Source of the DNA: Sipunculus nudus
Taxonomy: Eukaryota > Annelida > Sipuncula > Golfingiida > Sipunculidae
Reading direction: 5' to 3'
Length of the DNA: 64,000 bases
Assembly (NCBI GenBank): GCA_026874595.1
Contig: CM049318.1
Location: 51,116,750 to 51,180,749, forward strand
The notes under the pieces are model-generated. The model was not told the DNA's origin, made no database searches, and worked only from the letters and a program-made list of their open reading frames with translations. Positions 1 through 23,870 of this stretch are shown in pieces (positions within the stretch are counted from its first letter, which is position 1; each line of letters starts with the position of its first letter). Position numbers and translations under genes: made by a program.

Positions 1-20
1 ATGGTAGAAAGAACGATTAG
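1..20 (+). CDS. Last codons of an upstream TLCD3-like gene (partial)
   Basis: The window opens inside the final codons of a gene. Bases 3-20 read G-R-K-N-D-stop, in the frame matching the last codons (N-G-R-K-N-G-stop) of the complete TLCD3-like gene that ends at 23830. The match continues as DNA through the 3' flank for about 1.5 kb, so this is the 3' end of a tandem duplicate and not a chance match. Only five full codons plus the stop are visible, so nothing can be said about the rest of this copy or whether it is intact. The family assignment rests entirely on homology to the downstream copy. Confidence 0.7.
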
Positions 21-1045
21 ACTCATGAAACATTTTTATTCATGGTTTATAAAAATAACCCAAAACAAACAAAAGAAAAAGGTTTTGATGAAGAGTAAGA
101 AGATTACCATATCCAGATAAAATGTACAGTTTCACTTGCAATGGGGACACCAGTGTAAGCCAAATGGCAAAGAAGTCAAGAAGAAACAAAAAATCACGCT
201 GCATATTTCAGTTCAGGCCGATTTTTTTGTGTGTATGTTAAAATACGTTATGATTCAAATTGACATTGCTATCATGTAAAATTCAGAAAAAAGTTTAAAT
301 TAAGAATAGTGTATTTATTCCCTTCAATTGATGATTTAAACTACCATGCTTAATTCAGTAAAATATATAAATGTATTCCCTGATTTGAGATGCACTCAAG
401 GAAACAAGGGTCCCAAGGAAAGGTTCCAAATGGACACGTAAAGGTTTTTTAGACCCCACGAGCATTCCTTTATGGAACCTGTAAGGTTTTATCCATAACT
501 TATTAAAAGGTTCTGAGAAAACTCTTCAAGGTGGATTGAGTGGGTTCTTGGTGGAACCCATGCTGAAGGGTTTTTTATAGGACCTTCATTGAAGGTTTAT
601 TTCAGAATATAAATCAAGGAAGTCATTTGATAGACAATATGAAAAAGTCTAAAAGTATTCCTAAAAGTGGGGCATTGCAAGGATCATAGCAAAAGAAAAA
701 TCGTATTTCAAGCTTAGTTATATCCTGTATATATGATTCATCCTTGCAAATGCAAAGAAAACACGAATTTATGGGAAGCACATGTTTTCGTTTATTGGTT
801 TTATTTGTAAAGATTAACTTGTGAAACTGAACATCAACCGAAAAGCATTAGCAAGTTATACATGTATGCACCTAACTAATGTATTTTGGCATTGGTATAC
901 TGGCTAACATTTCCAAGTTGTGGTTTTGATGTATTATCTGCAACAATTGCTTTTAAATACTTTATATGAACCAAATCCTATTACATATTTGATTTAAAAC
1001 AAGGATAACTGCTCTTCAATTTTGACGGGATGTTCCAGGTTCACA

Positions 1046-1053
1046 TGACGTCA
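1046..1053. promoter_or_regulatory. CRE-like palindrome TGACGTCA, copy 1
   Basis: This is a perfect 8-base cyclic-AMP-response-element palindrome. It is kept unchanged in the duplicated block (24658-24665), within a stretch that is better conserved than its surroundings. Known factors for this site are CREB/ATF bZIP proteins. A regulatory role here is inference only. Confidence 0.3.
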
Positions 1054-1829
1054 ATCCCTCCTCTTTATTTCATATAAATTGTTGGTCATTCATGTGAAGA
1101 GAAAGTCTCCGCCTGAAGCATCTGTGAGGTGCGTACCTGTCACGGAATTAATATTTGCGTATTAAACTTTCAAAACGGGCTTACGCTGTATAATGTATAG
1201 AGTCTGATATATCTACATTATAAATTATGTAAACATTAACATAATATAGGTTCGGTAGGATAAAAACCGCTTCAAAGAGACAGGGATACAGGGATCCATT
1301 TTCAAGACAGAACAACTGTGAACATGTATTCCATACTTAAGGGAAGAAGGTTAGGGAAGTGGTGTCGTTTTCACACAAATTCAACGTAGGACTGATGTGA
1401 TACCGAGCTATGAACCGTGCAAAGAACTTTTTGTACAGTACTTGATAGGTTCAATATACACTATATATACTAGATATATATTGTATTGCATTATTCGTTG
1501 AGATACTGTACAAACTATTTAGTCCATGGGCTAGGAGGGGTCACCGTGCACCCCCTCTGCGACTATATGACATAGGTATATTTAGATCCCCAAGTATCTC
1601 CAGTTAAAGAATTTAGATGTTAACATTGATTATTTTGGGATACACATCCCTTTTAGGCCATTTAGAGACAACCGCCTCTTTACGCACACCACCCGCGGAC
1701 AGGTAGCCTTGATAAGGGGGTAGGGGTATGTGAATACTTATAGCTCGCTCAATATTTGACATATTCACTTCAAACTGCATTGCATATGCAAATACTTTAG
1801 AAATTCACTGATGAAAACAATTTGATCAG

Positions 1830-1834
<5 letters not shown>

Positions 1835-1925
<91 letters not shown>
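1835..1925. repeat. (TA)n microsatellite
   Basis: About 90 bases of alternating T and A with one AAA interruption near 1884. It is one of more than fifteen such tracts in the window. Confidence 0.95.
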
Positions 1926-1927
<2 letters not shown>

Positions 1928-3200
1928 TGATTAACAATTAATTACGATATTAATAGAATATCGTAAAAGAATATTAAATTGAAAACTTTTTCTTTATTTT
2001 TTCCCCAAACAATATTTTTCTTCGAGATGATGTTGACATTTATCAAATTCTAGTGCATAAATACATTAGTTCCTGTCACCTGTACACATACTTTTGATAA
2101 GATTATGAATATTTTGCCATTTGCACATGCAGTGAATGACCCATTGTCCATTCTAATGTCAGCGAAGAGTTAAAATCTGTAATATTTCTTCAGGATGTTT
2201 TATTAATATCATAATTGAATGGTTCATCACCAAAAACCTGTTAGAAATATATATGATTATATCTATCAGTGACTTTTCCGAATGTTTTGCAAATACAATA
2301 CAGTTTATTTTAAGTAAATATGTAAAATATTAAGCGGGCTTAAAGAATTTTATACCCCTTTCCCCGTAACAAGGCTACCAGTCCGCAGTTGTCGTGCATA
2401 ATAACGGTTTTTTTTTTCTATCTCAGTTCCAAAAAAGGGTTGTGTATCCTAAAATAATTAATTTGACCATCTTAATTCATTAATTGGACAGATTAAGGGA
2501 TTAAAAAATCGTATATAAAAAATTCCGAAAGGGGTGCACAGTGACCCTTCCTATATATTGGATTAAATATGATTATTTTTGTAAAATTATTATATGTAAA
2601 AAAATTCTCAAGAAAGGGTTTCCTTTAATTCTAAAACCAATAAACACGTTCATGTCCAGACAAATAACAATTCATAGTAACAAGGAAGTATCATGGTGAA
2701 AAATAAATGCATCAGGAGAGGAACATGAAACACCACATCCGTCTTATAAACAAGGGATACCATAAAATAGAATTAACAATTGGTCATTCATTGCAGGTGT
2801 ATATTGTCAAATATTCATACATTTTAAAACAGAATTTGTAGGAATGTCAGGAACTAATGTATTAATGCACTAGAAATTCAGAAATGCAACATCATCTCGA
2901 AAATAAACTGGGAAAATGGAAGAAAAAGCTCTTAAATTCAATTTTTTTATAACTATGTATATATGTATGTATTATATGTGTATAAGCATGTTATATGTTA
3001 AATGTTCAATTGCATTTATTTATTTATATTTGTACCATGGCCCACAGGGCCTTTTTGTATAATAAATTCTTATTATTATTATATATATTTAGATACCGGG
3101 GCTTTATGTTTCTTTTGAGATATAGACCAAGTATTAAAACTGCCATTAAAGTCTTATTATGTACATCATAGAAAGTACTGGTTGAATTTACCTTCAATCC

Positions 3201-3372
3201 AAAGAAATCTGCATTCTAATGAATGGAAGTCTCTGCCTTGTTGGGATCCCTGTTTTCCCTGTGCTCCCCGCCCCGTATTTTGCATTCACTTACTTAGCCT
3301 ATTATTCGTGCGTAAATGGCCGTACATTTTTTTTATATTCCTTGATGTTGTTTTTGGAACATGATTCATTTT
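3201..3372 (+). repeat. R1 dispersed repeat, 5' part only
   Basis: It begins with the family signature AAATCTGCATTCTAA and includes the GCATTCACTTA and TGGCCGTACATT blocks shared with the copies at 25808, 31150, 33958 and 47060. The 3' half is absent. Confidence 0.7.
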
Positions 3373-4127
3373 TTGTGTAATATAAATACTCACTCGTTTA
3401 GATAATTTATTTATTTACACAAAGATTAGTTGGTTATAATACAAACAATTGACTGAACATACTAAACAATTCTCCATTGTCCAGATCGCGGGGTGATATT
3501 GGTTATATATGCATAGCATAGGTACACATCTTGGTTCATCGGTAAACATCGCCAGAACATCGGATTACCATGCACGATGATATCCCGAAACCTGTCGATC
3601 CCTAAAGATATTCCTCGATTTGACGGCGATATCTCCATATTTATCTAGGAGCTCCCAGTCCTTTTTGTGTCCAACATGTTCCTGACCTCTCCAAGGCACA
3701 ACATATTCCGGTTCTTTATTATTACGCCTTCAGCGTAACAAGTTGAATCATATTCGGGGTCACGTCGGAACAACATATCGGGAATCATCTGTTCTTCCTA
3801 GGCTTAGTGTGAACAAGCTTTGAACCTTTATTAACTTCCAAAGACTACAACAAAACATACGTGACCGATATTTTTCATTCAAACAAAGACGTTGGCAATT
3901 TGAACCAAGATTCAATTTGTTTTTTAATGCCTGTTGTCATTAATAGATACAACTTATAGTTATATCTTATATTATATAGTGATACTTATATTATACATAA
4001 TACATTCATATGCTTATTGTTATCAGTGACTTTTCCCAACTATTTGCAAACATAATGCAGTTTCCATTGAAGAATGATAATTAACAATATAGGGGGTTTC
4101 CCGGGGAGGTCATTCTGTCTTCGCTGT

Positions 4128-5405
4128 CCTTGTTTAGAGGGAACCGTATGGCCAGTCAATGATCATGCGATTTACTAATAGGCCTTTAGTACAACTAAAA
4201 TATTTAACAACTAAAGAATGGTTGTCTGACTAATATCAAGCCAGACAAATAGTCACGCTCTGTTTTACATATTTGGTGACAAATATAATAACTAACGGCC
4301 TAACGGGTCAAACAGGCAACTTTGATGGATCATTTTAAGTGAGTCAAATCATTTTGCAAGAGTTGCCCAATTCACTCCACCAACTTTCACGCGCACGCAC
4401 ACACATGAAGGATATGTTGTTAAGCTCTCCTATTCTGATACGAAATAAATGTCCAAAACAGGTGGTGCAGTGAGCGGGGGCATCATTTTGTATTCTCCTA
4501 CCAACGTTCTATATATTTAATTATTGAAATTGTATTACTATATTTGCATTAAACATTCATAGACCTGAAAAGGCCTAATAACCAACATACATACACACAC
4601 ATACACAATTTAACATCACTTTATTTTGTACCAAATGCACTTGTTAAAATTACATTTTTCAGTTTGACCTGTTCTGTGTTTTTAAATGCGTTAAGAGTAT
4701 TTTCGCCACCTGTCGGCAGGGATTCATAACCATACCGAATGGTAGATATGAAATATTATGAAATCTTCTTATTGCTGCCACACGTAAATCATTAAAAATT
4801 CTGGCTAATATAACTCTGCTTCAGATAATTTTCTCAAAATATAATCGTAACTTATACGTGAAAATATGTATTCTGATTGTGAAGTGTGTATCACGGATGC
4901 AAAATATTCTCCGCACAGAGGATGTATTTATGTATAATGTCAAGGATAACCCTTACCAGTGGTCATCGAACCATTTTCAGTAGGAATATGTAAATTCCAC
5001 TTTTTAAATAAATAGAGGAAATATAGAGAATTTATTGAGAATATCCACTTCAAAGAAAACCAAAATAAAGGATTTGATATGTTAAAATATCAATATGAGT
5101 GTAATAAAATTTGCCCAGTTTCTGAATCCTAACATAGTGCCGAAGAGAATGTATGGAAAACATGAATAGTTTGCCCCTCCCCTTCCAGCGCCTCCTCGGC
5201 TATTGTTGAACAGCAGTAGACGCGTCATACCCGGGGCGCTTCCAGAATTTACAGAAAGGGAGGGGGTGGGGATGCCGGGGATGGAGGGGGGGGGGGTGCG
5301 AAAATACTTTCTGGCCATATATATATATGTGTGTGAGAGAGAGGATGTGCTTGTGTGTGTGCGCACGCGCGTGTGTGAGTGTTGGTGCGTATTTGCAAGA
5401 ATAAT
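4128..5405 (+). repeat. Inverted duplication, copy 1 (pairs with 26935-28022)
   Basis: The reverse complement of this block aligns to 26935-28022. Shared runs include CATGCGATTTACTAATAGGC at this end (as GTAAATCGCATGG in the partner), the stretch CCACCTGTCGGCAGG near 4710, and the run CCAAAATAAAGGATTTG near 5060. Copy 1 carries an extra G-rich insert at about 5170-5312 that the partner lacks. No coding frame is shared between the copies, so this is duplicated non-coding DNA. Confidence 0.8.
5170..5312. repeat. G-rich insert inside the inverted duplication
   Basis: This segment interrupts the alignment with 26935-28022. It contains the G-rich GCTTCCAGAATTTACAG...GGGG pattern also seen at 15537 and 57363, so it is probably a small mobile element that entered only this copy. 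A run of more than ten G lies near 5288. Confidence 0.5.
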
Positions 5406-6537
5406 CGCTCATATTAATTTGTAACTCTGGTGTTTTGAGGTGTCCGTCAGCGGTTATATTAGATGTGGGTTTGTTGTGTGTGTGGGGGGGGGGGGGGGAT
5501 GTCAGACGCCAAAACCTTTCTGAAGGGTTTCAGACCATTTCTGAATACCCCTTTTCCGGACAAGGGGCCCTTTATTTAGGATTAATAACTAATCCGCCTG
5601 ATTTTGACCCCGCCTTTTCCTAAATACAGGATCTGCCCCTGTTTATGCGTATATATATGCGCCTATTCGTCAACTCAGAGATTCAGGGTAACATGACGTC
5701 ACACCACGGGTGGGTTATAGGCTTTATCTCAGGACAACCTTGAGCTGAAGACCAGTCTCGAAGACCGAGTCTTGATAAGCCGATCAGGTTTCAGTATGCA
5801 AGACTATGAGAACAGTCGATAAATATTCGATTGTTTTGGTTACCAAAGGCAGGTCCCGGCCTGAATTGACAGAATTTTAGGGGAAGATTATAGTATTATA
5901 CCGGTTATTAAATAATGTATTACAATTATTAAATACTGTATCACCATACTTGAATAATCATGAGAGGAAGAGGGGTTGGGTGCCCCCTTCCAGGTGTAAT
6001 TTTTTTTTAAATGCAAGTTTTAATCGTGCAATCTGGGGTAGCTTAAATGCATTATATTATTTTTTGGTAAGGTCGAAAAGGCCCACCCCCAAGCCGCCCC
6101 TGGAGTCGTTCTCTTGTGAGTCCCAATCTGCACAGAGTGGCAAATTCACATAGAACCCAGTGTAGTTACCGAACGTTACGCTAGGGAGTGCTGCTGTATA
6201 CACTTCTAAACCTCCAAATCCCTGCAAATACTTCAGGGTATCACAGTTTTCGGTTTACCCAAAAGAAAATTGAACTTGACTTAAGATAAACCCCGGGGGT
6301 AGTCTGAGCGTAATTTCAGGTTTCCCCCGCACAGTTCAGATTACCTTCTCACTGACTGACCAAATGACGAATTCTTATGTTTAAACAGGTTATTTGAATA
6401 CACCAGGTAAAAGATGCTTGATTTAAAAGCTGAAATCAATCTATATAAATAAAAAATTATCGCAAAATGCTAATTAAATTGTTAATTATATTTCTGTTGA
6501 TTCATACTCTCCATCAAAGTGCATGACACGTAACATG

Positions 6538-6538
<1 letters not shown>
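5406..6538. other. Intergenic DNA with G-rich repeat debris
   Basis: A G-homopolymer at 5483-5498 is followed by a segment with CGGACAAGGGGCCC and AGGATCTGCCCCTG, reminiscent of the 15537 foldback family. A CRE-like TGACGTCA occurs at 5694-5701. Nothing looks like a gene. Confidence 0.5.
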
Positions 6539-6587
<49 letters not shown>

Positions 6588-6657
6588 CCTAAGTTGGTTC
6601 CAGTGTTTGCAGTATAGTGCTCGATACAGCTAAGGTAGAGCTAGGGAGTGCTGCTGT

Positions 6658-6728
<71 letters not shown>

Positions 6729-6783
6729 CCTAAGTTGGTTCCAGTGCTTGCAGTATAGTGCTCGATATAGCTAAGGTAGAGCA
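6539..6783 (+). repeat. 140-bp tandem duplication containing (AT)n tracts
   Basis: The unit is an (AT)n tract followed by ATTAACCTAAGTTGGTTCC and on to GCTAAGGTAGAG. It occurs at 6585-6645 and again at 6725-6783, with AT tracts at 6539-6585 and 6661-6724. The phrase CTAGGGAGTGCTGCTGTATA also occurs at 6181 and 6641. The pattern suggests slippage or retroelement-end duplication next to the Penelope-like relic. Confidence 0.8.
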
Positions 6784-6789
6784 GCTTAA

Positions 6790-7365
6790 CTAAACGTTAA
6801 GCACGCTGGAGCATCGTGTTATTACTCCGAGTTTCACGCCTGTGACGTTCACTGCGAAATGATTTATTTTGGTTGTTGTGCCGAGTTTTGAATGGGCCAC
6901 TTGCCAATCCGATGTACTGAGCGGTGGCAAGTGGCCCATTGAAAACTTGGTGCAACAACCACAACAAATCATTTCGCAGTGAACGTTACGAAAAGGAAAC
7001 GGAACTACCGAAGCACATTTGGACCCTGAAGAGAAAACAAATAAAATATTCTACCACCTGGGAAATAATCCAACCCTCTTACACAATGAAACGAACCTCG
7101 GACCAATGTAATCTCTGTATGGAGGAGAAATACAGCATACTGCACCTCAAAAGCGACTAGTCAATAATCCTATTAAACAGGCGAAGTGAATAAATTTCCA
7201 AATGCCCAGACCTGAAGCCACCGAACCGTGTAAAAAGAAAGTAACAGTTATTGCTTGGTCCCGAACAATCGTCAGTTACCTAATGATCGTCCGGGTGCCG
7301 ATACCGGCAACGGCGTGAAACTCGGAGTAATAACACGATGCTCCAGCGTGCTTAACGTTTAGTAT
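6790..7365 (+). mobile_element. Penelope-like retroelement relic with inverted ends
   Basis: The outer arms are inverted copies. ACGTTAAGCACGCTGGAGCA near 6795 reappears reversed near 7345, giving about 50 bp of near-perfect pairing. A second, inner inverted repeat (about 6842-6900 against 6927-6990, arms of roughly 60 bp around a 25-base loop) mirrors part of the coding region. Between the arms lies a decayed GIY-YIG endonuclease C-terminus. Penelope-like elements are known for inverted, truncated partial copies, which fits this layout. An (AT)n tract follows at 7361-7408. Confidence 0.7.
6924..7230 (+). pseudogene. GIY-YIG endonuclease C-terminus of a Penelope-like element (decayed)
   Basis: The frame reads WCNNHNKSFRSERYEKETEL, then PKHIWTLKRK, then a WEII stretch, and QCNLCMEEKYSIL. 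This is the order typical of the GIY-YIG endonuclease region of Penelope-like reverse transcriptases: N-H-x-KSF-R, T-EL-x-K-x-IW-LK, and the C-x-LC-x-EK motif. The frame runs from about 6924 to a stop at 7158-7160. Beyond it, remnants such as LNRRSE continue with another stop. The reverse-transcriptase domain and the GIY and YIG residues are missing upstream, where the sequence is replaced by an inverted copy. The fragment cannot be functional. I recognise the family from motif order only. Confidence 0.72.
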
Positions 7366-7410
<45 letters not shown>

Positions 7411-7440
7411 TAAATAAACATAAAGAAACAAATATTCTGA

Positions 7441-7915
7441 GGTGTTTATCTGAAACCGTAGGTTATGATCTAAAATTGATACAACGGATATCACCCCACT
7501 GAGCACACTTGGACCCACAAGAGTGCGACTCTGCTGTTGAGGGTTCTTGGGCGTCACAATCTGACCCCCCAAATGGCACTGCGGCTTTTACATACACCAG
7601 CGGTGTAGGTAAAATTGTTGTGCTTAGGGTAATGTAGTCCATTCAAGTATGTGAGATAAGAATTGTTTCAAGGCAACTTACATAAACATGGAGGTTTTTG
7701 AGGTAAGGAATTCACATAATAAGTAATGTTTTTTTAAACATACGCTTGTTAAATATAAATAAAAGATGTTTCCTTGAAATGTAACAAATTTTGATTTTAA
7801 AGTTAAACAGTTGAGACAAGTAGTCCAGGCCGTCACATAGTGCCTGTGAGGAAGAGGTTTGTTTTGAGTAGACGACCTCTGTCGGAAGGATGCGGTAACC
7901 ATTTCCAACCACGTA
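7441..7915. repeat. Dispersed repeat, copy 1 (pairs with 49940-50395)
   Basis: This block aligns in the same orientation to 49940-50395. Shared phrases include GTTGAGACAAGTAGTCC, TGTTTCCTTGAAAT and the pair ending ACGACCTCTG / ACGACCTCAT. Small open frames on the minus strand are not conserved between copies, so the unit is probably non-coding. The family is not recognised. Confidence 0.7.
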
Positions 7916-8066
7916 AAACGTACACACTGTAAATAACCTTACAGTTCGAAAGATTTTATTTTCTTATCAGAATCTGTTTAACCATCTATACACGAGATAT
8001 GATTTTATATTTTGTATCCTAGCAGACAGGCGATAATTTGTTTTGGGTTTTGGGTTTTATATGCAG

Positions 8067-8352
8067 AAGTAGCCCTATAAATCTGTCCACAAATGAGGTG
8101 TTTGTCAATGTCTCTTGTATTTCAGTAATGTCTTTACATATATTTTCTCTACGGATTTCTCATCTTTCTTTCGTACCTAATTTTCAGGATTGCTTGGACC
8201 CCTGTGGTCTTTTGCGGTACACAGAAAACGTGGGAATAACTCTGGCTGCGGTGCCTTTCACAATACCGTCACACTGTACCGTAGCAGTGGGCTTAGCGTA
8301 TATATTTAATTGTTACTGGATTTGTTTGATTATTTACCTCTCATCAGTCTGA
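8067..8352 (+). pseudogene. Diverged TLCD3-like terminal exon (relic or second paralog)
   Basis: The open frame ending in TGA at 8350-8352 aligns without gaps over about 40 residues to the last exon of the complete gene at 23558-23830. RYTENVGITLAAVPFTIP matches RYSQDTGLSLLQVPMTLP, and NCYWICLI matches NFFWLVSI. The YW-x-CL pattern also fits vertebrate TLCD3A as I remember it. Upstream in the same frame, NLSTNEVFVN followed by a hydrophobic stretch and LRIS fits NMKSHPLYVVN...FRIA. About 12 residues are inserted before RYT. An acceptor-like ...ATATGCAG precedes 8067; an alternative acceptor with a long pyrimidine tract precedes 8188. I could not find the first three exons upstream, so this may be a broken copy. 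The protein would stop soon after the last membrane segment. Confidence 0.6.
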
Positions 8353-8916
8353 CTGAAACAGTTTTTGCTGCCATCTGGTGTATGATATTAAAACTAGCTT
8401 TCGTTTTCTTTCAAAACGGTAGAAATTGCCAGGACATTTAATATAGAAAGAAAAGTTGAAGATTCCTGGACGTCCAGGCACAATGTCGGAGAGTCCCATC
8501 TGAGCATGAATCGCCCTAGTGGGAGAGTATATGTGAAATTAGATTTGTTTTTATTTTAAGTCATTATCGTATCATTATATGGTTAGAAAACGTGATATTA
8601 TATGATCACTTGATTACAGTGAAATGTCAGAGTCAGTTGTCAGCGCAGTGTCTATACAACTGACTGGTTTGTTAAGAGAGGCGACCATGATTTGTGACTG
8701 CTTCAAGGGCAATCTTTGATTATATCGGTCCTGCGGCCAGAAATTTGCGCGTCCAACAGGAAGCTTGGACCCCAAGAGCCTAGCGTCCAAAAGAGATTTA
8801 ATAGACTTCTTTACTTTAAATTGTGATGAAGTTCGCTGTACAAAAGATTACCTGTGATGGTTACATCTAACGTTGGTTATTTCGTTAAAATAAAGGTTTA
8901 TAAAAGCGTATTTACA

Positions 8917-8979
<63 letters not shown>

Positions 8980-9549
8980 AATTAAACCAAGGGTATAAAA
9001 AAAATAATGAAATAAGTTAATGATAAGATACATTTTTTTTTTTTATAATGACCAGCAAAGCTAAAACTGGAATTAAAGTTTCTTAAAAAAATTGTGTATC
9101 ATCTCAAGCTATAATTTCAAATTGGTTGAACACAAAGTTTTCCAGCAAAACCACCACAGCACATGGACTTATCATCTTAAATTCTTCCTTGAGAGTAAAC
9201 ATATTTTCAGTATGTCTGTTTACCATAAAAAGCCTGTGAGACCAGAAGTCTTGCGCATGGGCGATAATTCCCGAACAAAGAGAAGAGAATGAAAGGAGAA
9301 ACACCGGTTTAAAGCTAGAACAACTTTCGGACAGGCCCGTGCGACATCAGCCGGCTTCGCCGCAGTGGTGTTGTTCCTGCCGCGATCATCAGGCAACTCT
9401 GGTAAATTGCCTTGTAAGTCAATTGTGAAAATACGTAACTAACACATTTTGTTGCCAGAAAATGTGTAAGCAATGTGTTTTTACAATTAAAATAATAATT
9501 TCCATACCATGATGAGCACTTTGAAACGATTTCTTGAACAAACAAATTC

Positions 9550-9595
<46 letters not shown>

Positions 9596-9929
9596 TGTGT
9601 GTATATATAATATTCACATAAGAGCTCGTCCAAAGTGCAACTAATGAAACAAAATGCAACAAATCCTGACAAAAATGGTTGTTTCAGGTATCTCTTATTT
9701 TATGCGCAGGATTTTGCGTGGCATTCTGATTCGTTTTAGGCTCAAGCCATGTTCGTTGCTATGGGAACTGTACTTGTTGAACCCTGGCTTGTAGAGACGT
9801 GCTGCCCATTGAAGACTAGAAATTTCGGGTCTGTTCATGCGCCATGGGCGCGCGCATATTGTTGGGTTTGGAATGTTCTTGAATATGGAAGTTTCTGGGC
9901 TTCGGATGGAAAAAAAGCTATAAAAAGGG
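8353..9929. other. Intergenic DNA
   Basis: Two (AT)n tracts occur at 8920-8973 and 9553-9593. The open frames here are short and largely read through the AT tracts. A frame beginning at 9749 is cut by the LTR-like insertion at 9930 and does not resemble a known protein. Confidence 0.5.
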
Positions 9930-10783
9930 TGTTACGGAACCTAATATCAACAGATCACGTATGCGTGATGAACATAAATTTTGTCAAGGAGATACAAAAA
10001 TCAGATTCTGTAACATTAGGCAGCGTGAAATGTATGGGGAATGAATGAAGAAGTCAGTGTTTTTTTGTTAACAAATAACTATAATTTATTCTTAAAACAA
10101 CCCTAACATTACAATACACTAAATCCATACAATTACACAGTATAACAGCAGTATAACAACAAATCAATACAATCACACAGTAAAATAAACTAAGTGCACA
10201 GTACCTGGATACCACCACCGTCACAGCAATATGTCCTTTAAAATGTATAAGCCGGACGAACAGCTCACCCGAATTCTCTCGGAGAATAACAGTCCAATGT
10301 AAAGCTCTTGAAACAATCCCGAAAGTAAACTGAAGACCAAATAAGATTCGTCACAAATCCAGAAGAAAATCTGAAGAAAATCTATAATTGCCGCACTTAT
10401 CGGAATAGGTCCCACTAACTGACATACACGTTTCCGTGTCCGCTGGAATATTCTCTCGCCTCTCTCTCGGCTTTAAAACACAGCCTCTTCATATAACTTT
10501 TCACCCCAAGCCGAGAATTTTCCATTTCTCGAACAATCTAACGAACCTAACATAATAAACACGCTCAAAGAACATACTAGAACAAGGAACACCGTGTATC
10601 TACACGCCAGGGTTTAACCGTTAGCCGGCCCGGCCCGGCCCGGCCAGGTGAAAATAACCCAGACTAGCATGACAAAGAGAGTTCAACCAGTACGGATTAA
10701 ACTGAGAGTGCAACACGCGGCCAGGCGAGGCCGCTACAGCACGAGTTACGCCCGTTCACACAATAAAAAGGGCACCTGTAACA
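9930..10783. mobile_element. Solo-LTR-like element, copy A
   Basis: The element begins TGTTACGGAACC and ends CACCTGTAACA, with TG...CA termini. It is flanked by a 4-bp target duplication, AGGG, at 9926-9929 and 10784-10787. It is about 850 bp, has no protein, and is shared with copies at 15986 and 34180. It contains TATA-like and AATAAA-like strings (CAATAAAAAG just before the 3' end). An LTR left after recombination of a Ty3/Gypsy-type retrotransposon is the simplest reading. A non-autonomous DNA element with 4-bp target duplications is the alternative. Confidence 0.75.
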
Positions 10784-13720: not shown

Positions 13721-14237
13721 CGGGCGTATAATGCACCCTTGCGGTGCTTAGTTTTCTGAATGCCCTGTACTTCTTAACTCAATTGTCGTCAGACTACTTG
13801 TATACTATAAAACTATAATGCACGGACACGCGCAACCTAGGGGCCCTGCGCGGGCTGAAAACAATGTAATCCGCACCCGTTACGCATCACAGACTATCAA
13901 TCCTTAATTAAAGAAAACATATTTAGCCAAGCCCTGTGGTTTCTATAATTCTTTTCCCCGAACCCGCCCCGATATTTCAAGACAGCAAATTAGCTATATA
14001 ACAGGGCCGCGTACCCCAAATGATCATGTCAGCGGAACAGCTCCCCGGTACCCTTTTCTTCATACTTATAGATGCATGTCGAAATTCACGAGTCGATGAA
14101 ATGGTCGGCGAATCAACCCTAGCACGCACCGTGTTACAAATAGGTTACTCCAGAGCGTCAGTGCAACGGGAATTCCTGAGGGATGCTCATATAGTTTCAC
14201 CAGTCGCTCATGTCCATGGTGCCAAATATTTTTTACA

Positions 14238-14410
14238 ATGGTGGCCTGCGCTGTTTTATTCGGAATATTCGCTCTTTATCATGTGGCGGTCACGTGGTTT
14301 TTCAGCCGGCTGGTTCTTTGGATGTACCCCAAGACCGAAATGTCGTCAAGTTTGTTCTTCAGCGGCAAGTATGTTGTTATCAAATTTCATGCTCTGATTT
14401 CTTATGAATG
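14238..14410 (+). CDS. TLCD3-like exon 1 (start codon)
   Basis: The ATG at 14238 sits in an acceptable context (ACAATGG) and opens a hydrophobic segment, MVACAVLFGIFALYHVAV. The exon ends in phase 2 at either of two donors. CAA|GTATGT after 14368 is the better splice sequence. ATG|GTTATA after 14410 keeps the FHALIS stretch that resembles the family's conserved helix, and I prefer it for that reason. The longer overlapping frame beginning at 14020 is out of phase and is a shadow. Confidence 0.7.
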
Positions 14411-14618
14411 GTTATATATCTATTTCTTATATAAAGTTTTCTAACCATTTTAAATAAGTTGGTTACAAAAATTAAAAATACTGACGAAACTGACATAATC
14501 TTTCCGGAATTATCACTTTAATGAATTTTATCTAACAAAAAAGTTTTAAATTTAATCTTTTTTGTTATTGCATTGAGATAACTTAAATTTGCATTAAAAT
14601 TTAAAAAAATCACCTACT

Positions 14619-14682
<64 letters not shown>

Positions 14683-15430
14683 TACTACTACTTCTACAAC
14701 TATTACTACTAGTATTTCTACTGTAACTACTAAGACTACTACTACTACAACTACTACTTGTATTTATAATAATAATTATTATTATAATAATATTAATATT
14801 ACTTGTGGTCTTACCGTCGCAGTAAATTATCCAGTCTAAACGGTTCAGAATTTTTTTTTAACTTTCATTATGCGCTGCAGATACTTTTCCTTCTGTTGCA
14901 TGCATTTCGGGGCCCGTCTCAATCATGGTACATAACAGAATGATAACATAAGATGAAACAATAAATATATGATAAATAATGGGGAAACATGGAAATAAAA
15001 ATAATTGTGGTAGTAATACTACTGCTTACAAGAAGGTTAACAGTCCTTGCTGCTTATATTAACCAGATAAACCCTAGATATGGTCTCATGTTCCCTTTCG
15101 CATCAACTCATTGGTTTTGCTTAACACGCGCAGTTGGAAGGGTATGTTTGATTGCGTTTTGTTTAATATGTTGTTTAACTTCCCATTAAGTGACAGAGTC
15201 TCTTGCTTTAAACACTTTAAAAAGATCTGCACAAGTATGACAAAACTGCTATTGTGGCCATGTCACTAATCAATGATGTGTGACAAAACCAGAGTAATGC
15301 TCTGACGACCCTGTCACCATCCGGCCATGAATTAAAAATCACATCGTGCGGCAGGCAGCTAGTCAATGATTATTGCTAGCACCAATGTATAGTGAATGCG
15401 AAATTGCAAAGTTCAAGTTTGTTGTGTTCT

Positions 15431-15527
<97 letters not shown>

Positions 15528-18163
15528 TATACATCAGGGGCGGATCCAGGATAGGAAAAGGGTGTGGGGGTTGGGGGTGGGGGGTCCAACGCAGAAGGAC
15601 TAATGATAAACCTAAAATAAAGGTCCCCGGGTTCGGAAATGGGGGGGGGGGGGGGAGGGGGTCCCGGATCCGCCTTTGCATATTTAAATACAGTGTTCAT
15701 ATATCTATAAATCTATACATACATGCATGTACATATTTATAAACATGCATCCGTTACACATTATGTAAAATATATTAGGTTAGTATATACAAATATCAAA
15801 TATGTATTATTTATTTAGTTAGAAAATAAAAGTACATTATAATATAATAATAAAAATAAATAATATTAATATTGAAATATACATTGCTGTGGGAAGGAAA
15901 ATTGGTGTATGCGGGGGGGGGGGGGGGGTTCATTACCCCCTCTCTGTGTCTCTGTTTAGTTTGTTCCTATTTTGAATATCAATATTGTTACGGAACCTAA
16001 TATCAACAGATCACGTATGTGTAATGAACATAAATTTTGCAATGGAGAAAAAAAAATCAGATTCTGTGAAATATCTAGGGGAATGAATAAAGAAGTCAGT
16101 GTTTTTTTGTTAACAAATAACTATAATTTATTCTTAAAACAACCCTAACATTACAGCTAGTACACCAAATCAATACAATTGCACAGTACAACAACAGTAT
16201 AACAGCGAATCAATATAATCACACTGCCTAATAAACAAAGTGCACAGTACCTGGATACTACCACTGTCACAGCGACAAGCCCTTTAAAATGTATAAGCCG
16301 GATGAATAGTTCACCCCAATTCTCTCGGAGAATAACAGTCCAATGTAAAGCTCTTGTAACAATCCCGAAAGTAAACTGAAGACCAAATAAGATTCGTCAC
16401 AAATCCAGAAGAAAATCTATAATTGCCGCACTTATCAGAATAGGTCCAACCAAGGAGTTTACAGGGATGGAGTATCAAGTGAGAGTCTGGCCGTGTCGGA
16501 TGTTGCTGACGGGGGTCATATAACTCGCTGCTCAATGGCACACAGAGATGCCGCTGATAAGCCCGGCGCTAATTGATTCAGCGCGAGAGACCACCCTTCG
16601 GCGTGACTTCGGAACAGCTCGTTAGTTCCCGGAGACCACCAATGTGAACTAACGCGAAATTTATCTCCGGTAATACTTAATATAAATATTTAAACAATCA
16701 TAAGTTTGAACACCATATTTCCATATGTGTGGGAAACGTGTGTGAAGGTTTCGTTGCTAATGACGCCTGAGCTATAGCTTGGCTGCGGTACATATGGGCG
16801 ATAATAAAAGAACAACGCCGTCAGTGACAGAGCGGACAATGGCTCGCTGTTATCCATCAAAATGAAAGTCATCCGAGCATAAGCTAAAAATTTTTTTTTA
16901 TCGTCGGAATACTATTATACATGGCCAATTATTAATATAAGTCAGAAGTGTGGGAACTGATGGAATTGTTTATAATTCCGAAGTTATTCAGGGAAAGTAA
17001 GGTTTACACTTACCAGTCGTCCGTCATGAATCACGGCATAAGTTGATGTAGAGTGTCCACATCTATCCAAAAATTGGTCAAGTGATTCCTCAACACGAGA
17101 CCTCTCTAGATATATTTGATGCGCATAATTCTTGGCAAAACAAACCATTTGCGCATTCATAATTCCGGTCAATGTTATTCCAGTGATTTACTGCTCAGTT
17201 ACTGGATATATAGCTCTCCGCTTCAGCGAGCTACAGCGGACCGCAGAAGTAACATCTAGCAGGCTCGCTAGACACCGCGGCACAATAGGCGTACAATAGA
17301 GTTAATGGGCTTATCATGTCTTAATTGCAATTAGCGCACGACTGACACTCGCGACCTGGCAGGGCTTCTGACAGTTGTTACTCCAGTCCTGTAAACTCCT
17401 TGGTCCAACAAACAAACTGTACGCTGGAATATTCTCTCACCTCCCTCTTGGCTTGGCTTTAAAACACAGCCTCTTTATATAAATTTTCACCTCAAGCCGA
17501 ATAACTAAAGAACCTAACATAATAAACACGCTCAAAGAATAAACTAGAACAAAGAATATTCTGTATCTACACGCCAGGGTTCAAAATGCGAATTAAACCG
17601 AGCCTGCAACATCCGGCCAGGCGAGGCCGCTACAACACGAGCTACGCGTGGCACACAAACCAAATGTCAACAACGCATGGAGCACCCCTGCGCACAATAA
17701 AAGAAAAACATGCAATACCTCTGCACACAATAAAAAGGGCACCTGTAACAATATCTAAAATGTCCCAATTGTATTGATAGCTTTCTGGTTACTGTCAAGA
17801 GACTTTGAAAATGCCAAAACCATAGGTATTGGCGGATGTGTGCGCTCTTTAAGTGCCTTTTGTTTGTATATCTATTTACAGGATTCTCGCCTGCCTGCAC
17901 GGCATCGTTTCTTCCACAGCTGGCGCCATGATTATCATGGAATGTAATCACGATACATTAAACGCCAGGTGAGTTCATCTCTATATTTCACTGTTGTAGA
18001 CTAGAAATCTGCATACTAAGGAATGCTAACCTCCGCCATGTGAGGGGTCCCTGTTGGAAGATGCAGCCAAAACCGTGTTTGCAATCAATTATTCGGCCCA
18101 TATTCCGAGGTTCATTGGTTCATAATGGAATAATTTATGAACATTACCAAAATCTAGTCGATT

Positions 18164-18220
<57 letters not shown>

Positions 18221-21200
18221 CATATTTAATAGGATGCAGTAAAAAAAGTAAACTGTTTAGATGTTACAGAAGGTACTTAATTCAGTCCTCCTCTGAATAA
18301 ATTGTATTCCTTAGAAAAATACATTGGGTTCTTAAATTGTATACGTATTGTTTAACTCTTTGAGGCGTTTCAAAGGGGTCCAATTATTTCAGGTATTAAC
18401 GTTTAATTATACCAATAAAAGCCTTTAAAAGTATTTTATTTTATGATCAGAGGTTTGACAGAATTGCAAATTTGGTGTGTCCATTCTTAGAAATAGGAAC
18501 TACTATTATCAGTGTATATTTCAAGGTTCAGTTTACCACAATTATGACAGTTGTAAACGAAAATGTGCAGTTGTAATTTTGGATCTGTGCAGTATCAAAA
18601 TTTAATTTTTAACGCTGTCACAGAGTGAAAAACACGACTCCTTTATCCCTACCAATAAATTGAAATGACCGACAGATAGACAGACAGAACATATTGTCGG
18701 TATATTATGGATTATATGATTTTCAGAACGATAGCTGGGAAGTTGTGGCCTGTAGAATGACATACATCATTCAAATGAACAAGCAAGCAGACAAAGGTGA
18801 CAGCAACAGACAAACATAATGGCACCTTGAAACATCTGAGATAATGGATTAGTAGAAAATCTTAAGAAGAAGTTAGAGATGAACAAAATTAGCTATAGTT
18901 TATGTAGGTAAGGTTTCGAGATATGGCCATAAAATATGTTATGTTGTATTTTTTGAGTGCAGCGCCCCCTAGTGGCCATTTCCCAGGAAAAAAAATAATA
19001 ATAATTTCGAGAAATCAGTGAAGGACATAAAATATTTCAGTTTCAAGACATGTCCTGCAAACTTGTGGAATATAGGGCATCTTTAAATGAAATCTCTCAA
19101 AATCTCGTTTGACGAGATATTATGCAAAATTTTGCGAGACTTATGATAAAATCTTAAATCATTAATAAAATGCAACCAGATACAAAAACTAGTCCTCTCT
19201 AGCTTTAAAACTGACAAAGTTAGAAAAATAAGACCCATTGGTTTCGAATATTATGAATTTTCCCCACAAATGCGTTATCTTGGTTACAGCAGATTTGAAT
19301 TTGCTACGCATCAGAAGAAAGGCCATGGAATGAGAAAAATAGCTTTAGGTTTTCTTGACAATTATAGACAAAAGATATGACGAAAATAAAATTATGATGT
19401 TTATGGATGACCTTGACCTTTGACTTACATTGACCACAAATAAAGGGCTTCTAGGACTTTGATTGTCGATCAGTTGTATAAGTTTGAAAGCGATTGCTGC
19501 AAAATCGTGGCTTGGTGAGTGGAGACAGACAGACAGACAGACATAGAAATAGACAGGCATACGCAACTTACCAGCATGCTTGCCGAAATCGAATATTTCC
19601 GGCAAGCAGTAAGGCTATTCACTATACAATTGGCTCTGGTGTGAATTCGCAAACATTAATATATATCTGTAATGATAAAAAAAATTTTGTCATAGTTTCT
19701 CTCATGATCCATTATAATCATATTATATAAATAACCTATAAATACAAACTTGAAATCAACCAACAATGGTTAAACCTAAAAATTAAAAAAAGTTTTGTCT
19801 CTGATATAATCGGTCCCCAGCCCTTCAACTGCTTAGAGTTTGGCTGACGGTGACTTTGTTTATTAATAGTTCTAAAATGTTCATAAATCATACCCTGCAT
19901 TTTATCATAACTATATGAATGAGCAGAATGCCAGCCACATGATCATGTCAGTGGAACTACTCACCCGGTACCCTTGCACCTCCGTGGGTGCACGGATGCA
20001 TAACAAAATCATACTTACAAACCAACAGAGCTTAGATACCAGGTATTTTAATTTCAAAGGAGACACCAACCCTGCAGTTATCAATATATGCAAATTATAA
20101 AGTGCACCTCAGTGCTCTAATTAGTAGGGCTGGGCAACATTATCGATATATCGGTTTATCGGATACGGTGTTTCGAATATTGCCTATCGCGATACAGTTT
20201 TAAAATATCGATATTTCACGATATCTGCTAAACATGTCTAAAACTGATTTTGAAGTAAAAATAATGTTTCTGTTGAAAAAAAATGAGACATCTGAAGACT
20301 TCTGAATAGGTTTGTATTATTGACATACAGGCTTAAAGTGAAAATCGCCTCCCAAACGTTTAAGTAGGCCTGATAATCCAAAGACAAAATATACGTCCCA
20401 GGAAATTTGTATGTCTGTTTGATGACTTATAATATACGAGAATATTTCTATACAACAAAAAGAAGGTCGCAATAAATAATTTGTCATTTATATTCTCTCC
20501 TCACATCTAATTTTAACTGCCAAAGTCAAGTAAACAGTACTAACCGTTGTTTGAGAACTTCATAATAAGTTTATGTTTAAGAACTTGATATGTGGTACGC
20601 GGCTGTGAATGTAACACTACCTCTACCTCTCCCCGCTACCCCATAGCCTAGAAATCTCCCATTGGCGAGTTATTTGCACACGTAAACCGTTCTTTGAGTA
20701 CTATCAAATACCCTGTATTATATACCAATCAGCGTTTAGAAAAAGACAAGTTTGAGTGATGGCTAAATTTACGAACATTGGCGAAGCAAGCTCAGTTGGT
20801 CTAGGGCGGGGGTCCATGGGCGGACTATAACACTATACTATACACACACGTGATGAGTCCACTTTTATTGAGCTCTTAGATATACTTAATTATGTAGGAA
20901 TTATTATTTACAACGGTCTTTTATCAGTGGGTAAACATGCTAAGGGTAAAATGGTAAAGGTTTTAAAGCGATATTAATGTTTATTTTTAACTATCATCGT
21001 ATAAACCATCTTTGAATAACTCTCCGAAAATTCGCCGTGGACTCCCGTCTCCCCGTGGATTCTCCGAATTTTAAGCCCGCCTTACACGATGCAACTTGTT
21101 CTACGACATGTCGCTCAACATGATCAGTTCATACACACAGCGATATGTGCTGCAACATGCCCTGCAAAACTATGATAAAAACTACATGCATCTAACATAA

Positions 21201-23830
21201 CTTTCAGGATTCTACCATTTTTCTGACTTGTAACTTTATATTAATTAATATTTGTGTGTGTGAGGAAGATGTATTCTGCGTAGGACATATTCTATCTCAT
21301 TTTTCTTTAATAGTATAGAGTTATAAGAAAAAAGGCATGGTTCCTTTTGAATAGCTATACTTCTTCTGAGCTTCTGAGTTGACCCTGCAAAACACATGGC
21401 ACCCTCCTCAGACACGGTGAAACCATGGACAGTCACTTTATCACAGGACAACATGACCAATCATAATAATCGTTGACCGTTTCCCCGAAGCTTGGCCTGA
21501 TGTCGCTCGACAAGTCGCACCGTTTATGGCGGACTTTAGACAGACCCATTAAACTGGAATAACTTGAATGTGCACTGCGACCTTGACTTCGCAATTCGCA
21601 ATCACGTATGGGTCATAGTCATGTCAATCAGTTGGTTATATTATAATACTATGCGTTCTAGTATGCTAACGTTCACAATTATTGTATTTTGTCTTTCAGG
21701 AGTTGGTTGACAATGCCGATCTTATATTTCTCCATCGTGTATTTCCTTCACGACCTCTGGGCCAAAATCCAGGTTACGGTACACATGGAGTGCTCCACCG
21801 GCAAAAGAACGTTACTGGAAGCTGCCATGGTTACCGCCAAGTCCGATTACCTTGTATTCGCTCACCATATAGCATTCGCCTTATTCTTTCTGCCAGTGAC
21901 GGTGGTAGGTATTTTGTTATGCCACGAAACACAATAATAATAATTTTAAAATTTATATTTATGTTAAAATCTATAACAGATTATCTTTGATAAGTTGTTT
22001 ATGGAAAAATGACAATACGACGGTACCTGAATTATAGTTCAAAAGAAAGTGATATACATTAATGATCTCATTTTAACAAACCAGGTATTATTCATGCTTC
22101 ATTGTATATCTGAATGACATTAATACGCATCTGTCATCAGAACAAAAAATAATCAGAGATGCATGATTCAGCGACCCTCTTTGGTGCCTATTTGATGAAT
22201 AACGGATTATTAAATCCCAACCTGCCACTCAAATCCGAGGAATAAGATGCAAACAACACTTTTCACACGCCGTCTGTACAAAACACGGGACAGGCTAAGT
22301 TATCGATGGCAACGCTAAACGTTTGGTAAAAACATCGCACCAGACGTCCGCGTAAAACAAGTGTACGCCGGTCATTTAATTGGTTCAATTGCCTTATTCA
22401 TTATTCATGAAATAAACACCAGAGGGGATCAAGGAAACAAGGTCTGTGAAAGCGTAGCCTCATACTTGGTAGTATGGAGAGATTTAGTTTTGAATTCATG
22501 CTAACAATGCTGCATATTTTTAATTAAATATAAATCCACAGGATCACTAACTGATGCCCAGAAAGTGTCTTGATTATAAGATAAAATCAACATTTTCACA
22601 TTTCTAGGCCATCGATAGACTTCACTATTACGTGGGCTGTATGCTTTTACTGGAAGTAATAATGCCAGGTCTGAGCATTAGAAAAATTCTCATAAAGGTG
22701 AGTTTCTGTGTACACTTGATATTCTTTAATATTCTGTTTGTCCTCTACGTGTTAGTCCATCCACCTGTTTTTACGTTTACCTGTTTGTCCGTCAACCTGT
22801 TTGTTCATATACACCTGTGTGTCTACTACCATATACCTTTTTCTCCCTCTAACCGTTTGTCCGTCTACATGATTGTCCGTCTACCTGTTTCTACGTCTAA
22901 CTGTTTTTCAGTCTAACGGTTTGTCCGTCTATTCCTGTTTCTCTGTCTTCCTGTTTCTTCGTATATTTGTTTATACGTCTAAAAGGTTGGCTGTCTACCT
23001 GTTTCTCCGTCTACCTGTTTGTCCGGCTACCTGTTTTTCTGTCTTCATTTTGTCCGTTTTCCTGTTTGTCAAATTATTTATTAGTTCGTCTACCCGTTTG
23101 GCAATCTACCTTTTTGTCCGTCTTCTCCTTTGTTTACATAAATAAGTCTTCAGTTTTTTCCGTCCATACGTTTGTCAGTCTATAAGTTTGTCCATCTATA
23201 TGTTTGTCCGTCTACCAATAAATCGGCCTTTATACCAGTTTGTAACTACAGTTACCGAAGTTTTAAACCAGCTGTAGGAGCCATTGGAGTTAAAGGGTAT
23301 TTTGACGTATACAGGTCAGGAGGAGTAACATTGTTAAACCTGACCGTCTGGTTCGTATGCACGAGGATAATTTTTTAATTTTAATTACATCTTGTGAAGA
23401 AATGTGGAACTTGTGCATTTTTTAATTTTAACATTATATATATCTAAATATAGAGTGAGTATGGAGTGCAAATGTTTGCAATCTTAAAGTGTGTTCAACT
23501 GTAGAAGAGACACTTCAATAGGGAATCTTTTAAACATCATTTGCTTTGTCGTTGTAGTTGAATATGAAGAGCCACCCACTGTATGTCGTCAATATTGCTA
23601 TTCTGGTCGTTACGTTTCTGGTATTCCGGATAGCCATCTTGCCGGCGATGTATGTACGATACAGTCAAGACACTGGTCTCTCGCTGCTACAGGTCCCGAT
23701 GACGCTACCTCTCCACGTCAACGTTGGCTTTTTTATTGTTCCTCCTATGAACTTCTTTTGGCTCGTTTCCATTGTCAAATGCACTATTTCGGATATGAAA
23801 AACAGAAACAATGGTCGAAAGAACGGTTAG
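14238..23830 (+). CDS. TLC-domain protein of the TLCD3 (FAM57) family, four exons
   Basis: The spliced model is 14238-14410, 21700-21904, 22608-22697 and 23558-23830, giving 246 codons; vertebrate TLCD3A is about 257. TLC-domain proteins are multi-span ER/Golgi membrane proteins linked to ceramide and membrane-lipid metabolism, and TLCD3B has been reported to have ceramide-synthase-related activity. Visible signatures include a hydrophobic N-terminal helix (residues 5-22), FHALIS (51-56), YFLHDLWA (72-79, the family's YF-x-YD), and the paired histidines FAHH (111-114). These are followed by VGCMLLLEVIMPG (135-147), RIAILPAMY (180-188) and GLSLLQVP (196-203), the last essentially identical to vertebrate TLCD3A. 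All internal junction phases agree. Compared with the vertebrate proteins, about 17 residues between FHALIS and SWLT are missing, so a short exon in the 7.3-kb first intron may have been overlooked. Family assignment is strong; orthology to TLCD3A or TLCD3B is not resolved. Confidence 0.88.
14619..14765. repeat. (TAA)n and degenerate (TAC)n microsatellites in intron 1
   Basis: About 20 TAA triplets (14619-14682) are followed by an imperfect run of TACTACTAC-type triplets. Confidence 0.9.
15434..15532. repeat. Compound (CT)n(AT)n microsatellite in intron 1
   Basis: CT dinucleotides (15434-15470) pass directly into AT dinucleotides (15471-15532). The open frames across it are translated repeats (SLSL, IYIY). 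Confidence 0.95.
15537..15679. mobile_element. Small G-rich foldback element
   Basis: The left end GGGGCGGATCCAGG is inverted at the right end as CCCGGATCCGCC. The interior is G-rich with a run of more than 14 G. It has no coding capacity. Related debris lies at 5170, 26456, 38505 and 57363. Confidence 0.6.
16451..17402. mobile_element. 952-bp TIR element nested in LTR copy B
   Basis: The perfect 15-bp terminal inverted repeats CAAGGAGTTTACAGG (16451-16465) and its complement (17388-17402) extend imperfectly to about 25 bp. The target duplication is GTCCAAC (16444-16450 and 17403-17409), 7 bp as seen. A hAT-like element would normally give 8 bp, so the superfamily is open. The interior is richer in GC than the surroundings and holds a short minus-strand open frame with a good splice donor. 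Confidence 0.75.
17014..17172 (-). CDS. Exon-like open frame inside the nested TIR element
   Basis: The minus-strand frame starts MTGIMNAQMVCFAKNYAH and continues through VEESLDQFLDRCGHSTST to HDGRL, where a consensus donor CTG|GTAAGT follows. Codon choice looks coding-like. A second open stretch further along the same strand (16690-16872, acceptor-like TTTTTAG near 16886) is not in compatible phase with this donor. It could be the first exon of the element's own decayed transposase or a captured host exon. I do not recognise it. Confidence 0.3.
18001..18216 (+). repeat. R1 dispersed repeat (5' part) ending in an (AT)n tract
   Basis: CTAGAAATCTGCATACTAAG, the AACCTCCGCCATG signature and the AACCGTGTTTGCA block identify it. 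The copy breaks into (AT)n at 18166-18216. Confidence 0.75.
18940..19620. repeat. Probable old interspersed repeat in intron 1
   Basis: The segment runs from AGCGCCCCCTAGTGGCC (18961) through TGACCTTGACCTTTGAC (19408) to a (GACA)n stretch at 19524. Phrases of this kind are common at the ends of dispersed animal repeats. I cannot name the family. Confidence 0.4.
20117..20225. repeat. Fragment with GGGCTGGGCAAC end and CGATAT-rich body
   Basis: TAGGGCTGGGCAACATTATC is followed by repeated CGATAT/ATATCG. Many animal DNA-transposon or retroelement ends look like this. The other end was not found. Confidence 0.4.
21070..21539. mobile_element. Foldback (MITE-like) element, about 470 bp
   Basis: The left arm TTTAAGCCCGCCTTACACG...ACTTGTTCTACGACATG is matched by the inverted right arm (CTAAAGTCCGCCATAAACGG...ACTTGTCGAGCGACAT when complemented). 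The pairing extends over about 45 bases with mismatches. It lies directly before TLCD3-like exon 2. There is no coding capacity. Confidence 0.6.
21700..21904 (+). CDS. TLCD3-like exon 2 (paired-histidine exon)
   Basis: The acceptor is TTTTGTCTTTCAG|G and the donor GTG|GTAGGT. The exon enters in phase 2 and leaves in phase 0. It encodes YFLHDLWA and the FAHHIAFALFF segment, which carry the aspartate and histidine pair conserved in TLC proteins. Confidence 0.88.
22608..22697 (+). CDS. TLCD3-like exon 3
   Basis: Thirty complete codons lie between CACATTTCTAG and AAG|GTGAGT. VGCMLLLEVIMPG and IRKIL match the VGC...ELSTPF...R-IL block of the family, but the usual STPF is replaced by IMPG. Confidence 0.88.
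22745..23215 (+). repeat. 16-bp minisatellite in intron 3
   Basis: Degenerate units of TGTCCGTCTACCTGTT fill about 470 bases between exons 3 and 4. The long frames across it (VYLFLRL... patterns) are translations of the repeat. Confidence 0.9.
23558..23830 (+). CDS. TLCD3-like terminal exon
   Basis: It starts after TTGTCGTTGTAG in phase 0 and ends at TAG 23828-23830. It encodes YVVN, RIAILPAMY, GLSLLQVPMTLPLHVNV and a last membrane segment ending in a short polar tail (NRNNGRKNG). This exon supplies the strongest family match. Confidence 0.9.
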   Translation: MNMKSHPLYVVNIAILVVTFLVFRIAILPAMYVRYSQDTGLSLLQVPMTLPLHVNVGFFIVPPMNFFWLVSIVKCTISDMKNRNNGRKNG

Positions 23831-23864
23831 ACTCATTAAAAAACTATATATACCATGCATTATG

Positions 23865-23870
23865 AATAAA
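23865..23870 (+). terminator. Possible polyadenylation signal AATAAA
   Basis: AATAAA lies 35 bases after the TLCD3-like stop. The 3' UTR would be unusually short, so other signals further down may be the real ones. Confidence 0.35.

Follow-up and report, generated by a model that had tools for sequence, protein, structure and literature searches.

The locus analyzed here in the annelid Sipunculus nudus raises the question of whether several pieces of one TLC gene family, all in the same orientation, form a tandem array that grew by local duplication, and where such an array would sit within the family. The window, a stretch of 64,000 nucleotides (GCA_026874595.1, CM049318.1, positions 51,116,750 to 51,180,749 of the forward strand), is carried by a 70.9-Mb contig (C13) of a 1.43-Gb genome. 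It sits within a same-orientation tandem cluster of related TLC genes, of which three look intact and two are broken (Table 1).

Table 1. Coordinates of the features of the TLC cluster within the window
Feature	Window positions	Strand	Evidence
Gene A exon 5 end (last codons and stop)	1-20	+	Remaining gene A upstream at C13:51105379-51116749
Gene A 3' flank	21-1519	+	Duplicated as gene C 3' flank 23831-25252
First duplication unit, distal end	4134-5389	+	Counterpart 26955-28020 inverted; K2P 0.18 over 4134-5088
Tandem duplication junction	5387-5389	.	Gene A flank (GT-rich tract) joins sequence from just past P1 exon 3
5'-truncated P1 duplicate (3' part of gene and flank)	5387-8920	+	Collinear blocks with C13:51089744-51098222, 77-95% identity
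Broken terminal-exon remnant of P1 duplicate	8132-8334	+	Frame-aware score, Pfam, collinearity with P1
Gene C exon 1	14238-14368	+	Exon model, GT-AG
TG...CA insertion private to gene C intron 1	15986-17748	+	Short duplicated target at edges; empty site in gene A intron 1
Gene C exon 2	17882-17968	+	Exon model, GT-AG
Gene C exon 3 (D91, H128, H129)	21700-21904	+	Exon model, GT-AG, alignment
Gene C exon 4 (E157)	22608-22697	+	Exon model, GT-AG, alignment
Gene C exon 5 with stop (R195, GLSLLQVP)	23558-23830	+	Exon model, GT-AG, alignment
Gene C 3' flank, distal portion of second duplication unit	23831-28020	+	Similarity blocks

Gene content of the cluster

Gene C (14238-23830) is intact, with five exons encoding 261 aa and GT-AG boundaries at all introns. 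The initial annotation had rightly described this gene as complete, with the paired histidines of TLC proteins and a GLSLLQVP block, both of which are present, but had divided it into four exons instead of five. Residues 44-245 matched the Pfam TLC domain (PF03798) at 67.5 bits, against a curated cut-off of 24.6, placing gene C in the TLC family. The first 20 bases of the window, previously read as the last codons of another family copy, proved to be the end of gene A. The upstream extension that had been proposed as a check, with an absence of TLC exons counting against an array, recovered five exons with GT-AG sites at C13:51105379-51116769, encoding 261 aa. The window itself shows just 20 coding bases of this upstream copy, which would fit a copying of the 3' end and flank without any upstream gene; with all five exons of gene A found and their splice sites intact, the probability of such an event is negligible. 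Genes A and C share 229 of 261 residues (88%), and the TLC assignment of gene A was made through this identity rather than through a Pfam scan of the whole protein. Further upstream lie two more genes: P0, which is older and intact, and P1, which is broken and whose exon 3 ends at C13:51089683. Exons 2, 3 and 4 have equal lengths in A, C and P0 (87, 205 and 90, respectively). Exon 5 of P0 by itself scored 29.5 bits to Pfam TLC in a genome-wide search, which returned at least five matches and undercounts the family, since genes A and C are absent from its list.

A 244-kb scan located five TLC terminal exons and four copies of exon 3, every one on the + strand inside 79 kb, bearing out the tandem array and local expansion that had been suggested and revealing them to be wider than the window showed. 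The nine array exon copies scored 82-485, whereas the remaining listed places scored at most 76, similar to what reversed sequence, used as the null, reached at best (61-76). Leftover places slightly above their own reversed null (68 versus 61, 72 versus 66, and 69 versus 67) were treated as noise, every named copy scoring at least 82. P0, A and C, intact paralogues on one strand that their divergence shows not to be alleles, constitute a tandem gene array. A genome search with gene C as the query returned at least 16 matches, with the array and a gene on another contig (the C7 gene) the only loci among the matches listed. An IMG/VR scan, which reaches close relatives only, confirmed no relative, and sequence comparison with solved structures gave no match at E values up to 1.

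Weaker candidates elsewhere in the window were rejected. An exon-5-like match at 47395, at the expected spacing of 23.8 kb, scored 52 against a best of 57 among 60 shuffles, and an exon-1-like match at 42632-42510 on the - strand (tblastn E, 0.001) and an exon-3-like match at about 62009 on the - strand were equalled by 4 and 3 of 60 shuffled queries, respectively. Scanning long stop-masked translations against Pfam (1-8351 on the + strand; 24001-63692 on both strands) gave no TLC match; since this approach overlooked even the exons of gene C, which is intact, its negative results carry no information on TLC exons.

Duplication junction and the truncated P1 copy

Collinear blocks connected the sequence from C13:51089744 through window position 1519 with window positions 5387-25252. 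At the junction, the sequence resembles the gene C flank up to 5389 and P1 (C13:51089744) from 5387 onwards. P0 and P1 would have arisen as a pair in an older duplication event, and a later tandem duplication took a unit from just past P1 exon 3, across gene A, to approximately 5.4 kb past gene A (about 32 kb at its present size), the 3' part of P1 plus gene A being copied to give the fragment plus gene C. Two observations count against this account: the distal block at 4134-5389 is inverted between the two duplication units, therefore requiring one additional rearrangement, and the flank blocks are separated by stretches of approximately 2.6 kb and 1.7 kb that cannot be aligned.

Because the duplication break fell inside P1, the copied fragment is without exons 1-3 and incapable of working. 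The piece at 8067-8352, annotated at first as a diverged terminal exon of the family, does carry terminal-exon homology, confined to about 8132-8334, but belongs to a broken P1 fragment and not to a diverged member. Its frame-aware score was 116, compared with maxima of 66 for the reversed window and 77 for 60 shuffled queries. With an X placed at the frame break, it matched Pfam TLC positions 133-197 at an E value of 0.016, under the curated cut-off, and the open frame as it stands had no match in Pfam. An open frame at 8023-8352 and clear exon-5 homology could be taken as signs of a working, strongly diverged family member, a reading that we consider very unlikely: the piece is a collinear copy of the P1 3' end; a deletion has removed the body of exon 4, all of intron 4 and the beginning of exon 5, alongside one further frame break; and the open frame continues from non-coding sequence in a different frame. 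The remnant is a dead, truncated 3' fragment of P1, neither a gene nor an exon in use.

Divergence and selection between genes A and C

The resemblance of A and C in gene structure and flanks might also be expected if the tandem copies were assembly haplotypes of one locus misplaced side by side, a possibility named at the outset as one that would refute the array. The aligned non-coding sequences of A and C diverge by 14% over 5328 bases, with 66 indel events, and the copies are not haplotypes because of this divergence. Pooled over the 10 blocks used (5328 bases in total), the non-coding K2P distance was 0.155, with a range of 0.109-0.241, and the 3' flanks gave 0.17 over 447-1426 and 0.26 over 1-202. 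Divergence of this size far exceeds usual allelic divergence. The 1.76-kb insertion private to gene C, the position of the P1 fragment between the A and C copies, and the placement of all copies on a single contig likewise make misplaced haplotypes extremely improbable.

Coding comparison of A and C yielded a dN of 0.067 and a dS of 0.25-0.27 (three methods). The two proteins differ by 32 amino-acid changes, whereas none of 1000 neutral simulations gave fewer than 45, and no coding indel was observed where 9.7 were expected. Both genes have thus been under purifying selection, which shows only that both were kept; the lineage-specific specialisation suggested in the initial annotation would be a further step.

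Placement within the TLC family

The comparison covered provisional reference sequences of three human proteins, TLCD3A, TLCD3B and TLCD4. By BLASTP, gene C matched reference TLCD3B (E, 1e-31) and TLCD3A (8e-29) far better than reference TLCD4 (0.005). Its likeness to TLCD3A/TLCD3B (FAM57A/FAM57B) consists of the TLC domain, a GLSLLQVP-type block, common to gene C and reference TLCD3A, and the D/HH/E/R residues. The differences are low aligned identity to the TLCD3A/B references (25-28% for A and C, 22-23% for P0) and the residue at position 50. Here A, C and P0 have H, as does reference TLCD4, whereas P1, the C7 gene and both TLCD3 references have Q. H50 of gene C presumably corresponds to H54 of TLCD1. 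The C7 gene of the same genome shared 39.5% and 36.3% identity with reference TLCD3A/B. Because it is nearer to these references than A and C are, the array genes are not orthologues of vertebrate TLCD3 and would instead form a divergent side branch that is TLCD3-like.

The position-50 histidine could instead point to a TLC subfamily of its own, closer to TLCD4 or to some other member, and both trees that combined reference TLCD4 with the correct C7 gene model placed TLCD4 beside the array, though weakly supported (62 and 80), as did another tree built with a wrong join of C7 exons 1 and 2 (support 67). With the BLASTP contrast and the GLSLLQVP block opposing it, we regard this placement as unlikely. 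On sequence comparison with the three human references, the array genes appear to lie closest to TLCD3 while forming their own branch; the TLCD3 label of the initial annotation would therefore hold only loosely, with the C7 gene the closer one. Taken as a whole, the cluster is very probably a TLCD3-like side branch whose array grew through local duplication. A TLC-family expansion is also reported in the bivalve Pinna nobilis, where Table 3 of PMC13093298 gives an expansion of TLC domain-containing protein 4-like; it differs in its TLCD label and is not known to involve an array.

Conserved residues and predicted function

D91, H128, H129, E157 and R195 of gene C are kept in the C7 gene and in A, P0 and even the broken P1. 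The D, HH, E and R positions lined up across the whole comparison of eight sequences, of which three were the provisional human references and one was the broken P1, the paired histidines and D/E/R residues being those of the TLC family. The intact array proteins are predicted to be multi-pass membrane acyltransferases. By analogy with the published mechanisms of CerS6 (ping-pong; PMC11919693) and TLCD1 (PMC11838012), an acyl group would pass from acyl-CoA to the conserved histidine pair and then to a lipid acceptor. Gene C shares the TLC domain and double histidine with CerS1-6 but is without the DxRSDxE motif, found only in CerS according to PMC8789539, and by that definition is not a CerS. 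Of the TLCD1/FLD-1 lysophospholipid acyltransferases, TLCD1 has a D, an H and an E singled out in PMC11838012, and gene C has apparent counterparts of all three; the first H and the E are 28 residues apart in TLCD1 (H117 to E145) and 29 in gene C. For the TLCD3 proteins, CerS activity is reported for TLCD3B (PMC10387349), at odds with PMC8789539, in which FAM57B had no direct ceramide production. We consider it unlikely that the array is a separate, fast-evolving TLC acyltransferase branch, distinct from TLCD3 proper, whose intact genes, with His at position 50 in place of the Gln of more typical TLCD3 proteins, use a different acyl acceptor suited to the lipids of this lineage.

Implications

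The cluster is real, and its growth is of an ordinary kind for gene families; the array alone leaves the picture of TLC biology unchanged. It is a clean example of how a lipid-enzyme cluster grows, in which one duplication, with its break inside a neighbouring gene, produced a putatively working copy and a dead fragment together. The paralogues A/C and P0 would allow a comparison of acceptor specificity among poorly understood TLC proteins.

Organization of the TLC gene array

The complete TLC gene proposed in the initial annotation (gene C) proved complete and open, with five exons rather than four, GT-AG introns throughout, and a 261-aa product from the chosen splice combination, one of four giving an open frame. 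The Pfam TLC domain (PF03798) matched residues 44-245 at 67.5 bits (cut-off, 24.6), and hydropathy indicated several membrane spans. Intron 4 contains a decayed tandem repeat (window 22834-23123; 16-base unit, ~18 copies).

Coordinates of TLC genes in the source assembly (153 contigs; 1,426,538,692 bases; the window corresponds to C13:51116750-51180749)
Feature	Position	Strand	Description
Gene C exon 1	window 14238-14368	+	
Gene C exon 2	window 17882-17968	+	
Gene C exon 3	window 21700-21904	+	
Gene C exon 4	window 22608-22697	+	
Gene C exon 5	window 23558-23830	+	
Gene A	C13:51105379-51116769 (end, window base 20)	+	found by search with gene C
P0	C13:51061814-51067645	+	five exons, 261 aa, intact
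P1	about C13:51088170-51097615	+	broken gene
C7 gene	C7:13236701-13243960		five exons

The last codons at the window start had been read as a further copy, and a gene C query upstream of base 1 indeed recovered all five exons of an intact gene A, identical at 229 of 261 residues. Farther upstream lie P0, older and intact, and P1, which is broken: exon 3 has 173 bases versus 205 in P0, a difference not divisible by three, and the 91-base exon 4 reads into a stop. P0 and P1 share 64% identity over aligned residues; the identity of either one to A and C is 28-32%. Exons 3 and 5 from both P0 and C served as queries in a frame-aware scan of a 244,250-base region around the window, with reversed sequence as the null; exon 3 was recovered four times and exon 5 five times, always on the + strand (scores, 82-485). 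The remaining listed places scored ≤76, with nulls peaking at 61-76; a few slightly exceeded their own reversed null and, at such scores, were treated as noise.

The diverged terminal exon annotated at 8067-8352 retained its exon-5 homology (frame-aware score 116 against exon 5 of C; best reversed window, 66; best of 60 shuffled queries, 77), but it is a deleted, frame-broken copy of the P1 3' end. Its plain open frame gave no Pfam match; with X at the break, it matched TLC positions 133-197 (E = 0.016, below the curated cut-off), compared with positions 132-198 at 2e-5 for intact exon 5. Window 5387-8920 is collinear with P1 blocks (C13:51089744 to 51098222), and the piece is a copy of P1 at the DNA level. 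Similarity to P1 begins only 61 bases beyond its exon 3, so the fragment lacks exons 1-3. Deletions have also removed the exon 4 body, intron 4, and the beginning of exon 5, and there is one additional frame break.

A single tandem duplication

Two stretches are collinear: one begins at C13:51089744 and takes in gene A with its flank, the other begins at window 5387 and takes in gene C with its flank. Similarity changes over from the flank of C to P1 at window 5387-5389, the duplication junction. One duplication of the 3' part of P1, gene A, and flank generated the P1 fragment, gene C, and flank; the units now span ~32.4 kb and ~22.6 kb. The far block (window 4134-5389) has the opposite orientation in the second unit, and since far and near flanks are equally diverged (K2P, 0.180 and 0.173), it was likely inverted locally after or during the duplication. 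Non-coding identity was 86.0% (K2P, 0.155; ten blocks, 5328 bases; range, 0.109-0.241), and K2P for the stop plus the first 200 flank bases was 0.260 over 187 bases. A 1.76-kb insertion in intron 1 of gene C (window 15986-17748), absent from gene A, resembles a solo long terminal repeat: its ends are TG...CA, and it is accompanied by a short target duplication. Partial relatives occur at window 9930-10784 and 34180-34964.

Both A and C have been retained. Their 79 coding differences alter 32 residues, versus 45-65 in neutral simulations (n = 1000), 895 of which contained a stop; dN was 0.067 and dS 0.25-0.27 (three methods). No coding indels were seen versus 9.7 expected at the non-coding rate (66 events in 5328 bases).

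Family placement and predicted function

Against provisional human reference sequences, gene C matched TLCD3B (E = 1e-31), TLCD3A (8e-29), and TLCD4 (0.005), the three human TLCD proteins that the comparison covered. The array would represent a TLCD3-like side branch rather than TLCD3 orthologues, because the C7 gene, on another contig, is nearer to these human TLCD3A (39.5%) and TLCD3B (36.3%) sequences and the array genes form their own branch (support, 96-100 in three trees and 86 in another). The placement of TLCD4 next to this branch is weak (support, 62 and 80 in two trees, 67 in another). Further TLC-domain loci occur at C13:18456081 (L001, CerS-like by eye), C17:24655468 (L002, which looks TLCD4-like), and C4:77056778 (L003, with a stop within the TLC match). 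Elsewhere in the window are a 152-base higher-order repeat of 17-base units (51716-52131; 2.7 copies at 93%) and a - strand tRNA-Arg match (48101-48173), possibly inside a tRNA-derived short interspersed element (SINE).

Gene C residues D91, H128, H129, E157, and R195 aligned with identical residues in 7/7 other sequences (three of them the provisional human references, one broken). At residue 50, in exon 2, A, C, P0, and the TLCD4 reference have histidine, where P1, the C7 gene, and the TLCD3A/B references have glutamine. Judged from conserved residues only, the array proteins are likely membrane enzymes that move acyl groups from acyl-CoA onto a lipid. In published work, CerS6 carries the acyl group on the first histidine of the pair (PMC11919693), and TLCD1 is reported to be acylated at H117 and to lose its products when D98 and E145 are changed (PMC11838012). 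Unlike ceramide synthases, gene C lacks the DxRSDxE motif, as defined in PMC8789539. For TLCD3B, two papers conflict, one reporting CerS activity (PMC10387349) and the other that ceramide synthesis is not direct (PMC8789539).

The portions of the literature searched contained no description of a TLCD3 array; an excerpt on the bivalve Pinna nobilis lists expansion of a 'TLC domain-containing protein 4-like' family (PMC13093298), and several titles report mollusc gene families growing by tandem copying.
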